In this document: in pieces, positions 22,405-53,019 of the stretch | Position numbering within the stretch: the stretch's first letter is position 1 | Layout of the letters: each line of letters opens with the position of its first letter | Assembly (NCBI GenBank): GCA_021173225.1 | Contig: JAJOLK010000014.1 | Coordinates: 1-64,000, forward strand | Length of the DNA stretch: 64,000 nt | Direction: 5' to 3' | Origin: Phycisphaerales bacterium PN19_bin_20 | Lineage (GTDB): Bacteria > Planctomycetota > Phycisphaerae > Phycisphaerales > UBA1924 | Program-made: the position numbers and the translations under genes | Notes under the pieces: model-generated | What the model was told of the DNA's origin: nothing | The model's input: the letters and a program-made list of their open reading frames with translations, nothing else | Database searches by the model: none

Positions 22405-23760
22405 TCAAGTCTGCGGCGAGCTCTTCAGCAGCCGCTCCAAGTAGTGAATGTCCACGCCACCCTTGCGGAAGTCGGCGTTCTCCATCAGCCGCTGGTGCAG
22501 CGGGATTGTCGTCTTGATCGGCCCGACCACAAACTCGCGCAGCGCCCGCGCCGTCCGGTCCATGCACGCCTCGCGCGTGTCCGCGTGCACGATCAGCTTC
22601 GCCACCATGCTGTCGTAATACTTCGGCACCACATACCCCGGCTGAACGTGCGTGTCGATCCGCACCCCAGGCCCGCCCGCCACGCCCCACTGCTCGATCC
22701 TCCCCGGCTGCGGCATAAAGCCCCGCGCCGGGTCCTCAGCGTTGATCCGGCACTCTATCGCGTGCCCGCGCACATGAATATCGCCCTGCTTGTACGCCAG
22801 CTTCTCACCCGCCGCCACGCGGATCATCGCCTTGACGATGTCAACACCCGTGATCTCCTCGGTCACCGGGTGCTCAACCTGCACACGCGTGTTGACCTCC
22901 AGCATGAAGAAGTTGTGCTTCTCGTCCATCAAAAACTCGCACGTCGCCGCCCCGTGGTACTTCGCAAGCTTGATCAGCCGCACCGCCGACTCGCACGTGG
23001 GCCTGATCTGCTCGCGCGTCAGCCCAGGGCTCGGCGCCTCCTCAATCAGCTTCTGATGCCGGCGCTGCAATGAGCAGTTGCGCTCCCACAGGTGGATCGC
23101 GTTGCCATACTTGTCGCCGATGACCTGCACCTCAACGTGCTGGGCGTGCTCGAGATACTTCTCGATGAACACCGCCCCGTTGCCAAACGCCGCCTGCGCC
23201 TCGGTGCTCGCGGCCTGCAGGTTGCTCCGCAGGCTCATCTCGTTGTGGCACACGCGCATCCCGCGACCGCCGCCGCCGGCGCTGGCCTTGATGATCACCG
23301 GGTACCCGATCTTGTCGGCAACCTTCACCGCCTCCTCCGGGTCCTCCACCGCGCCCTCGCTGCCCGGGAAGACCGGCACCCCCGCCTCCTTCGCCGCCAG
23401 CTTGCAACTCACCTTGTCGCCCAGCCGCGCCATCGCCTCGGGCGTCGGCCCGATGAACTCGATCTTCACATCACGGCACGCCTGCGCAAACTCCGCCCGC
23501 TCGCTTAAAAACCCGTACCCGGGGTGGATCGCGTCCACGTCCGCTACCTCCGCCGCCGCGATCAGACGGCTGATGTTCAGGTAGCTGTCCTTCGCCGGCC
23601 CGGGGCCGATGCAGATCGAGCGGTCCGCAAGCTTCAAATACGGCGCGTCGCGGTCCGCCTCGCTGTACACACAAACAGCCTCCACCCCCAGCTCACGGCA
23701 GGCGCGAACGATGCGAAGGGCGATCTCACCACGGTTTGCGATCAGTATGCGATTGAACAT
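22405..23760 (-). CDS. accC: Biotin carboxylase subunit of acetyl-CoA carboxylase
   Basis: About 451 residues from ATG 23760, the standard AccC length. It carboxylates biotin on AccB with ATP and bicarbonate, the first step of fatty-acid synthesis. Seen: MFNRILIANRGEIALRIVRA, the ATP-grasp Gly loop KASAGGGGRGMR, EKYLEHAQHVEVQVIGD, the ERNCSLQRRHQKLIEEAPSP stretch and FLEVN-type FMLEVNTRVQVEHPVTE. In most genomes it directly follows accB; here a four-helix-bundle gene and structured repeats separate them. Confidence 0.97.
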   Translation of the reverse strand: MFNRILIANRGEIALRIVRACRELGVEAVCVYSEADRDAPYLKLADRSICIGPGPAKDSYLNISRLIAAAEVADVDAIHPGYGFLSERAEFAQACRDVKIEFIGPTPEAMARLGDKVSCKLAAKEAGVPVFPGSEGAVEDPEEAVKVADKIGYPVIIKASAGGGGRGMRVCHNEMSLRSNLQAASTEAQAAFGNGAVFIEKYLEHAQHVEVQVIGDKYGNAIHLWERNCSLQRRHQKLIEEAPSPGLTREQIRPTCESAVRLIKLAKYHGAATCEFLMDEKHNFFMLEVNTRVQVEHPVTEEITGVDIVKAMIRVAAGEKLAYKQGDIHVRGHAIECRINAEDPARGFMPQPGRIEQWGVAGGPGVRIDTHVQPGYVVPKYYDSMVAKLIVHADTREACMDRTARALREFVVGPIKTTIPLHQRLMENADFRKGGVDIHYLERLLKSSPQT

Positions 23761-23869
23761 AGAAACTCAGGAAACAAGGGGTCAAGGAATCAAGGGAATA
23801 AGCAAGCAAGAGATCAAGAAATTAAGCGAACATAAGATCAAGACAACGAGGTACAGCAAGCAGTCCGGT
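23761..23869. repeat. Low-GC (C)TTGATT-rich degenerate repeat between accC and the four-helix gene
   Basis: About 110 bp much richer in A/T than its surroundings. On the minus strand it reads as an irregular series of CTTGA and CCTTG-type units (such as CCCTTGATTCCTTGACCCC). It contains no ORF and looks like part of an inserted element. Confidence 0.6.
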
Positions 23870-24268
23870 TCATACGTGCCAAGTCACGGGTCGGCGCATC
23901 TCCAATGACCCGATCAGCCCAGCGGGCACCCGCTCACACTCGCGGCCCGCTTTGACAAGCTCTTCATGGCTTTCGTTCGAGACATAGCCCAAGTCCCGCG
24001 CGAAGCTCAGTTTGGTGTCAATTTCGTCCAGGCTGCCACGCGCCGGCTTCAGGCATCGCACGCAATCAGGTCGCCCGCTGCGGCCGTAGCCCTCGGCGAT
24101 GTTCGAGGCGATCAACTCGACGCCCTGCCGCAGCTGGCTCGAACGGCCAAATCGCTCCTTAGCTGGAAAGAGCGCAGCCGCTCGATAGACGCTCATGCCA
24201 AGCTCGTAATCCAACCTCCACGCGACCAGATCGCGGAACGTGCTGACTGATTTGCGCACCTGCGTCAT
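23870..24268 (-). CDS. Four-helix-bundle (23S rRNA intervening-sequence-type) protein
   Basis: About 132 residues from ATG 24268 (an in-frame ATG at 24286 adds six). Family marks: FRDLVAWRLDYELGMSVYRA, FPAKERFGRSSQLRQ, IASNIAEGYGRSGR and ARGSLDEIDTKLSFARDLGY. These proteins are encoded in rRNA intervening sequences and, widely, as free genes; the fold is a pentameric four-helix bundle and its function is unknown. Its position between accB and accC, with AT-rich DNA on one side and palindromes on the other, marks it as an insertion. Confidence 0.9.
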   Translation of the reverse strand: MTQVRKSVSTFRDLVAWRLDYELGMSVYRAAALFPAKERFGRSSQLRQGVELIASNIAEGYGRSGRPDCVRCLKPARGSLDEIDTKLSFARDLGYVSNESHEELVKAGRECERVPAGLIGSLEMRRPVTWHV

Positions 24269-24295
24269 GTGAACGCCTCCGCTCAATCACATCCG

Positions 24296-24360
24296 CCGCC
24301 TGCCCTTTGACAGGCGGGTTGCCAACCGGCGCGCCTCTCGGAGGGCGGGTTTCCAAACCG
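24296..24360. repeat. Cluster of palindromes between accB and the four-helix gene
   Basis: Three adjacent stem-loops: CCGCCTG/CAGGCGG (24296-24317), GGTT-GCC-AACC within GGCGGGTTGCCAACC (24313-24327) and GGTTT-CC-AAACC within GGGCGGGTTTCCAAACC (24343-24359). The first two overlap and are alternatives. The last two share the GGCGGGTT core seen in hairpins at 9898 and 20567, as in a REP-like element. They sit just downstream of accB and could end its transcript. Confidence 0.6.
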
Positions 24361-24379
24361 ACTCTTCCCTCTGCCCCCC

Positions 24380-24856
24380 TCATGGCCGAATCATGAACAG
24401 CTTCTGGCCATACTCCACCGACTGACCGCTCTGCACCAAGATCCGCTCCACCGTCCCGCTGCTCTCGGCCTTGATCTCGTTGAAGACCTTCATCGCCTCC
24501 ACCAGGCACACCGTCGTCCCCGCGCTTACCTTGGTCCCGACGTTCACAAACACCGGCGTGTCCGGGTTCGGCGCCGCGTAGAACGTCCCGACCATCGGGC
24601 TCAGCACCGCCACCAAGCCCGCGTCGCTATCAGCCGCCGCCGCCGCCATCGCCGCACCAGCCGCACCCGCACCACCAGCCGCCGCGGCCACCGGCACCGC
24701 CGATGGCATCGCCACCGGTGCCGTGCTCGCCACCGGCGCGCCACCCAACCCACGCTTGACCTGCACCGTCTCGGCCTGGTCCTGCAGGTTCAGCTCGCTC
24801 AGGTCGTTCTCGACCATCAGCTTGACCAGTTCCTTCAGCTTGCGGATGTCGATCAT
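24380..24856 (-). CDS. accB: Biotin carboxyl carrier protein of acetyl-CoA carboxylase
   Basis: About 158 residues from ATG 24856. N-terminal MIDIRKLKELVKLMVENDLS, a flexible Ala/Pro/Gly linker (residues 40-80), then the biotinyl domain with PMVGTFYAAPNPDTP and biotin lysine K123 in EAMKVFNEI, closing with GQKLFMIRP. It carries biotin between AccC and the carboxyltransferase. Gene order on this strand is accB, four-helix gene, accC. Confidence 0.96.
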   Translation of the reverse strand: MIDIRKLKELVKLMVENDLSELNLQDQAETVQVKRGLGGAPVASTAPVAMPSAVPVAAAAGGAGAAGAAMAAAAADSDAGLVAVLSPMVGTFYAAPNPDTPVFVNVGTKVSAGTTVCLVEAMKVFNEIKAESSGTVERILVQSGQSVEYGQKLFMIRP

Positions 24857-32705: not shown

Positions 32706-35003
<2,298 letters not shown>

Positions 35004-35006
35004 TGA

Positions 35007-35097
35007 GCGCTTCCCTCCGCCGGTATGAGCCGGATCAGGTTCCACGGGTGCATCTCAGCGCCGGCCGAACAGTTTGGCTGGCGCGCCCCGAGCGGAT
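35007..35097 (-). promoter_or_regulatory. TPP (THI-box) riboswitch controlling thiC
   Basis: On the minus strand the conserved aptamer parts occur in order: CGCTCGGGG, then CTGAGATG, CACCCGTGGAACCTGATC, a CCGG...CCGG stem with TCATA, and the closing GGCGGAGGGAAGCG. CGCT and AGCG close P1. The closing GGAGGG lies 9 bases before the thiC ATG and is its only ribosome site, so thiamine pyrophosphate binding should block translation directly. Confidence 0.95.
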
Positions 35098-35134
35098 GAG
35101 CCGGAGTCTAGCGCGAGCGCGGGGGCGATGAGGC

Positions 35135-52500: not shown

Positions 52501-52538
52501 CAATAAAAACGCCCCCGACCTTGGGAGCCGGGGGCGTT
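52501..52538 (-). terminator. Rho-independent terminator of rnpB
   Basis: A 10-bp stem AACGCCCCCG / CGGGGGCGTT is followed on the minus strand by a T-rich tail. Confidence 0.9.
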
Positions 52539-52542
52539 ACCC

Positions 52543-52973
52543 GCGTGGGCGGTAAGCCGAGTTCTGTCGGGCCCGGTGGTATCCGCGGGGTATTGACGGG
52601 GGCGTCCCTGCGGACCTTCCGGGCCGTGCGGCCATTTCTCTGCGAGCGCGGTTGCCCGCGCTCTGGAGCGGTCTACCCGCCGCCTTCCAACCGGGCCGGT
52701 TGTCGAGGTGCTCAAAGCGCCTCGCGGCGACTGCGTGACCTTGCACGCGCTGGGGTTTGCCGTGCCCCGACGCTCACGCGCCGGGCGGTGGGCTCTTACC
52801 CCACCGTTTCACCCTTACCTGATCGTCTTTCGACGCCATCGGCGGTCTGTTCTCTGTGGCACTGTCCCTCACCCCGGGCCGGGGCGGGTGGGCGTTACCC
52901 ACCAGCGTGCCCTGTCGTGCTCGGACTTTCCTCCGACCGGGCTGTGTGCCCGGCGGCGGCCGCATGCCCACGC
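52543..52973 (-). ncRNA. rnpB: RNase P RNA (bacterial class A)
   Basis: About 430 nt on the minus strand. P1 is closed by GCGTGGGC at the 5' end (52973) and GCCCACGC at the 3' end (52543). Conserved blocks: GGAGGAAAGTCCGAGC near the start, CAGAGAACAGACCGCC and GGTAAGGGTGAAACGGTG in the middle, and CAGAACTCGGCTTACCGCC at the end. It trims the 5' ends of tRNAs. The ends are set by the P1 pairing and are approximate. Confidence 0.97.
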
Positions 52974-53019
52974 TTTGTACTTGTCAACTGGCGATTCTAG
53001 AGCGCGGCGCGGAGCCCGG

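Follow-up and report, generated by a model that had tools for sequence, protein, structure and literature searches.

A putative one-armed IVP/S23-family element with an AG array between accB and accC of a Phycisphaerales bacterium

Why is the space between accB and accC in a Phycisphaerales bacterium occupied by a gene of the rRNA intervening-sequence protein (IVP/S23) family, and do the repeats beside this gene belong to it? The locus lies in the first 64,000 nucleotides of contig JAJOLK010000014.1 of Phycisphaerales bacterium PN19_bin_20 (the window). The host genome (G000) comprises 3.1 Mb in 59 contigs and is 91% complete. To our knowledge, no function has been found for the IVP/S23 family since its discovery in split 23S rRNA genes.

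The gene-bearing spacer of the window

Along the minus strand, accB is followed by a 111-bp spacer, the IVP gene, a 109-bp spacer and accC. The features of the locus are as follows.

24380..24856, minus strand: accB, biotin carboxyl carrier protein of acetyl-CoA carboxylase, upstream host gene (TIGR00531, 156.7 bits, cut-off 115.2)
24269..24379, minus strand: accB–IVP spacer, where relatives have the upstream arm (longest AG run 2; unmatched to the other arm)
24296..24317, no strand assigned: perfect palindrome CCGCCTG(N8)CAGGCGG, an ordinary GC-rich hairpin
24276..24280, minus strand: GGAGG, Shine-Dalgarno-like, 7 nt before the IVP ATG (read from the sequence)
23870..24268, minus strand: IVP/S23-family gene, 132 aa, predicted four-helix bundle (PF05635, TIGR02436, AlphaFold2, Foldseek, alignment)
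23827..23852, plus strand: degenerate continuation of the AT-rich tract (GC profile, periodicity)
23761..23826, plus strand: AG array, nine AGs at exact 8-nt pitch, read as the retained downstream arm (AG-run count)
22405..23760, minus strand: accC, biotin carboxylase, downstream host gene (TIGR00514, 660.5 bits)

A preliminary description, made from the sequence, had noted a gene-bearing spacer of about 620 bp. Indeed, the spacer measures exactly 619 bp (24379–23761) and contains one intact gene of the 23S_rRNA_IVP/S23 family. The family assignment in that description was also borne out, as the protein matched PF05635 (77.9 bits, cut-off 33.8, E 8e-22) and TIGR02436 (72.8 bits, cut-off 24). 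The reading frame is intact and retains every residue that is invariant across an alignment of 22 relatives. The only Rfam matches in the 64-kb window were a class A RNase P RNA of 439 nt (52537–52975, minus strand) and a TPP riboswitch (34995–35100, minus strand).

The AlphaFold2 model of the protein comprises four helices (pLDDT 84). Querying Foldseek with this model returned 2GSC as the nearest structure (TM 0.7–0.86), followed by 2RLD and then by Avd (4DWL). Both 2GSC and 2RLD contain five chains, and 2GSC is described as a toroidal homopentamer of four-helix bundles (PMC4990558), which is also reported in the title of Lin et al. 2006, as listed in PMC10053308. We infer that the window protein would form a pentameric ring like its solved relatives. 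The likeness to Avd (TM about 0.67–0.82) raises the idea that the gene is an Avd-type accessory gene of a diversity-generating retroelement. This is hardly credible, because the host genome, at 91% completeness, yielded no reverse transcriptase (RVT_1) match. A general association of IVP genes with reverse transcriptases was likewise rejected: IVP genes occurred in about 15 of 23 genomes bearing a reverse transcriptase vs 60 of 97 others.

The tract adjoining accC has a GC content of 0.40, compared with ~0.63 in its surroundings, and its 8-nt periodicity was reached by none of 2000 dinucleotide shuffles. From position 23761 it reads AGAAACTC AGGAAACA AGGGGTCA AGGAATCA AGGGAATA AGCAAGCA AGAGATCA AGAAATTA AG, that is, nine AGs spaced exactly 8 nt apart; the register is exact over all nine units and the filler between the AGs has drifted. 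No run longer than 8 at any spacing from 4 to 12 arose in 20,000 shuffles, and the array is the sole AG run of at least five at a pitch of 7 or 8 nt on both strands of the 64 kb. The low-GC repeat tract of the preliminary description is thus real, with an AG every 8 nt. Its AGs lie on the plus strand, appear as CT on the mRNA-sense strand and stand directly upstream of the accC ATG. The unit resembles an arms-only remnant at another accB–accC junction (L027) and an arm of locus L097.

The accB side differs. Its spacer carries no array (longest AG run, 2), and holds one perfect palindrome (24296–24317) and two smaller GC-rich hairpins. Two hairpins within 24269–24379, CGGTTTGGAAACCCGCCC and CCGGTTGGCAACCCGCCT, are similar to each other. 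Alignment of the two IVP flanks for complementarity gave a score of only 6–7.5, with no stem around the frame. The palindromes had been proposed as the other border of the cassette; this could not be upheld, because they are GC-rich and uncomplementary to the AT-rich tract, and no second copy of them was found in the genome. A second copy of the element DNA was not found in its own genome either, so it is not a dispersed repeat there. Judged from its sequence, the window copy is one-armed, its accB-side arm having been lost.

Inverted arms and the AG rule

The preliminary description had suggested looking for similar flanks at other four-helix genes. Among about 300 IVP loci from many phyla, roughly nine of ten have such flanks, in the form of two arms that are complementary and locus-specific. 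To score the arms, the upstream flank was locally aligned with the reverse complement of the downstream flank, and the 95th percentile of mismatched arm pairs served as threshold. This threshold was exceeded by 84 of 98 loci in the family set, 27 of 29 in the wider-phylum set and 79 of 87 in the cross-phylum set of named genomes and plasmids. When the frame was shifted by 800–1000 bp in the same loci, none of 357 control positions reached the score attained by 79 of 95 real positions. Consistently, complementary arms were present in 53 of 60 new phylum loci and 25 of 29 viral loci, all fetched after the AG rule described below had been seen. That the repeat tract of the window belongs with its gene, as the preliminary description had supposed, is thereby supported.

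Within the genus, IVP genes have short repeats on both sides that differ between loci and are complementary within each locus. At a given site, copies from different genomes differ in their units, but the two arms of each locus match; the arms thus evolve in concert. One locus in a Planctomycetota MAG (L235, JACRIP010000419.1) has unusually long arms with an inverted match score of 117.5 and the unit ACGGTGG/ACAGTGG. At two other loci (L116 and L135), arm polarity is reversed, as if the gene had been flipped between its arms.

The arms follow a simple rule. Their repeat period is 7 or 8 nt and hardly ever another, and each upstream-arm unit has one near-fixed AG or GG, the remaining positions being locus-specific. 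In the unit logo, G (0.93) and A-or-G (0.92) occupy adjacent positions, above permuted-unit controls. Pitch is equal between the two arms in 92 of 93 loci. Among 214 upstream arms, uninterrupted AG runs number five in 58 arms, four in 23 and six in 10; downstream arms likewise peak at five, as do all three data sets when taken singly and pitches 7 and 8 when separated, which argues for a count rather than a length. Because the number five had come from the data, the later samples (60 phylum and 29 viral loci) served as its test. Supporting the rule, their runs of at least four contained five AGs in 42 arms, four in 18 and six in 8 (five vs four, p = 0.003). Five is a peak and not universal, as roughly half of the arms have strict runs of only 1–3, in part through replacement of AG by GG. 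Complementarity alone could impose an equal count on both arms. The window copy departs from the peak, having nine AGs in a single array and on the strand opposite the mRNA.

These observations bear on the reading that an rRNA-type intervening sequence moved into an mRNA, where the arms matter only as a long stem whose cleavage by RNase III splits the accB message from that of accC, and the AG pitch is a by-product of stem growth. Supporting this reading, arms are complementary across the family, and the Coxiella 23S intervening sequence, which RNase III excises, has its S23p frame in a loop closed by a 28-bp terminal stem, with tandem heptamers ahead of that frame (PMC4990558). However, a constraint on stem length would not yield five units in both the 7-nt and the 8-nt class, and the window copy keeps its nine-AG register without a second arm. 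RNA duplex energies of whole flanks also separated own from mismatched arms only weakly in GC-rich flanks (38 of 98 loci), and none of 80 named loci overlapped rRNA or another known RNA. The window element itself lies between accB and accC rather than in a 23S rRNA gene, where such sequences are placed. A terminal stem is absent from the window copy and present in nine other accB|accC copies. Altogether, we consider this reading rather doubtful. Compared with a gene flanked by two inverted AG arrays, the window copy has one array at 8-nt pitch and lacks the complementary second.

Recurrent sites and history of the accB–accC copy

Eight recurrent sites account for 76 of the 98 family loci. They are dcd|nrdJ, groES|groEL, accB|accC, DUF58|BatA-like, recR|rpoN and sdhC|sdhA-like (groES and sdhC being putative), a gene without Pfam match|polysaccharide deacetylase, and the inside of dnaE. 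Orientation to the operon is constant at the recurrent family sites; as a general rule, fixed orientation was rejected, as it fails for L111 and for some cyanobacterial plasmid copies. In L111 (G106:C73:93896-94201), the IVP gene is antisense to the dnaE that it interrupts.

In all 13 co-oriented dnaE insertions (L064, L005, L083, L086, L092, L096, L098, L104, L112, L114, L117, L123 and L125), the +2 frame crosses the IVP gene without a stop and continues the DnaE frame at either end, compared with 10 of 85 loci outside dnaE (Fisher p = 2e-10). Because the dnaE frame stays open through the whole IVP gene, this one DNA stretch appears, from its reading frames, to code twice. A genome search likewise found one open frame over both dnaE halves in most split cases. 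Comparison of an empty and a filled genome of the same genus (G026 and G109) placed the element in a variable DnaE linker. Two further dnaE genes have halves 67–80 bp apart (G091:C37, ~173110–173175; G089:C64, ~121965–122045), possibly arms-only remnants.

The accB–accC junction was compared in 30 relatives that have both genes in one locus. An IVP gene lies between them in five (spacers of 456–619 bp), and in many others the spacer is just 3–40 bp. Since accC starts 3–40 bp after accB in the empty relatives, this close coupling is lost in the window. Arms or gene remnants, with no intact IVP gene, were found at L020, L021, L022, L024, L027, L028 and L033. Complementary arms, which differ in sequence, flank the gene at each of the nine other occupied accB|accC sites.

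On the AccC tree, G000, G001, G002 and G088 are all filled and G021, of the same clade, is empty; the IVP label changes 7 times across the family. The IVP copies of the same four genomes cluster, so one lineage holds the junction in three genomes of the genus and in one related genus, and the other accB|accC copies form another lineage, on a tree of 105 columns with many forks unresolved. Together, the two trees argue that the junction was filled at least twice and emptied repeatedly, and that the window copy is therefore old. The preliminary description had seen an insertion here. This holds relative to the many relatives with spacers of 3–40 bp; a fresh intrusion it is not, since G001, G002 and G088 share the lineage. 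That description had also named an ancestral arrangement, in which close relatives carry the gene at this site with no AT-rich flank. The close relatives do have the gene, but they also have repeat flanks, which differ in sequence and complement each other.

The junction also bears on whether the arms are the terminal inverted ends of a DNA-level mobile element, bound as single strands by the ring and moved by a host or trans-acting enzyme. Such mobility would fit a junction that is patchy, with empty, arms-only and full states, the presence of at least two IVP lineages at accB|accC, and dnaE genes both filled and empty within one genus. However, IVP trees track the site and not the genome (18 vs 88 changes), indicating that movement between sites is rare, and near-identical copies at different sites were not seen. 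Moreover, the arm sequence varies at every locus, unlike transposon ends, and the host genome is without an RVT_1 match. We regard this explanation as unlikely. Apparent recent transposition in Calothrix brevissima NIES-22, where the same gene occurs on two plasmids, was rejected; the pair is a shared segment, because the surrounding annotated genes are the same.

Alternatively, the window copy could be a decaying, functionless relic, in which an S23-type selfish gene and simple repeats made by slippage persist in a tolerant spacer. It is indeed one-armed and fast-evolving, with ~50% identity to its sister copy vs 91% for AccC. The genome's other IVP copy, at dcd/nrdJ (L001, G000:C14:137761-138048), has an in-frame stop codon and decayed arms. 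Decay is nevertheless improbable for the window copy, because its intact frame has the conserved residues and follows a good Shine-Dalgarno motif, and because all nine units keep the AG in exact register despite the drifted filler.

A possible ring-on-array element and its known counterparts

Taken at the level of sequence, the pattern speaks for a widespread genetic element that has escaped recognition and whose ring and arrays may fit each other. The pentameric relatives and the five-AG peak together suggest a TRAP-like interaction of ring and array. In the reading that we prefer, to which we assign about an even chance, the window holds an old one-armed copy of such an element, an IVP gene with inverted AG arrays whose AGs would be read by the ring. 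An IVP pentamer would contact one AG per subunit along an array of single-stranded RNA or DNA. Pairing of the arms would fold the transcript so as to leave the IVP frame in a loop, an arrangement known from 23S rRNA intervening sequences. The window copy, short of one arm, could no longer close this long hairpin, but it retains its gene and its array. Within the accB–accC transcript, the window element would accordingly form a segment that is tolerated and bound by the ring. Counting against this explanation, S23p of Coxiella was considered not to be produced in vivo (PMC4990558).

More tentatively, at somewhat below an even chance, S23/IVP pentamers in general may read their own arms, one AG per subunit at a 7- or 8-nt pitch, and would then represent a second, unrelated TRAP-like solution, carried by an element that has spread among bacteria through operons, dnaE and some rRNAs. 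A simple arm rule that crosses phyla and matches a pentameric ring would give the IVP/S23 family a directly testable function. It would also trace rRNA intervening sequences, and perhaps the cyanobacterial heptamer repeats, to a single element. For annotators, it would mean that the IVP element accounts for many insertions within operons and dnaE. A search of the open-access literature yielded no account of AG arrays or of IVP elements located in protein genes; within it, the Coxiella paper alone joins S23, intervening sequences and heptamers (PMC4990558). The novelty of the AG-array element is accordingly provisional.

Among known systems, the 23S rRNA intervening sequences with S23p (Coxiella, Leptospira and Brucella; PF05635) share the protein family and its position in a loop between complementary ends. 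That of Coxiella also has tandem GACAGAT heptamers before the frame, with an AG in each (PMC4990558). In contrast, the IVP elements described here lie between or inside protein genes, rRNA not being their usual host (0 of 80 named loci), and their arms form AG-pitched arrays, mostly of five strict AGs, in which the filler is specific to the locus.

Short tandemly repeated repetitive (STRR) heptamers of cyanobacteria are tandem units of 7 nt that lie in intergenic DNA. So are the TAACTGA heptamers of Beggiatoaceae, whose description mentions neither an IVP gene nor two arrays in inverted pairing (PMC4679880). Because their opposite strand has an AG every 7 nt, these TAACTGA direct repeats may, by their sequence, be arrays like those beside IVP genes. 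Avd of diversity-generating retroelements (4DWL; DGR ribonucleoprotein 8UB7) is a related four-helix-bundle ring that acts within a ribonucleoprotein, and differs in its reverse-transcriptase partner, which was not found in the host genome.

TRAP, whose 11-subunit ring reads 11 GAG/UAG triplets (PMC3913778), compares only in the way it works, as a homo-oligomeric ring with a repeat count that matches its subunits; here, the match is between the five AGs found most often and the five chains of 2GSC and 2RLD. TRAP has an unrelated fold and a pitch of 5–6 nt, compared with 7–8 nt for IVP arrays. The IVP element, for which binding is putative, has instead mostly five repeats per array and two inverted arrays around the ring's own gene.
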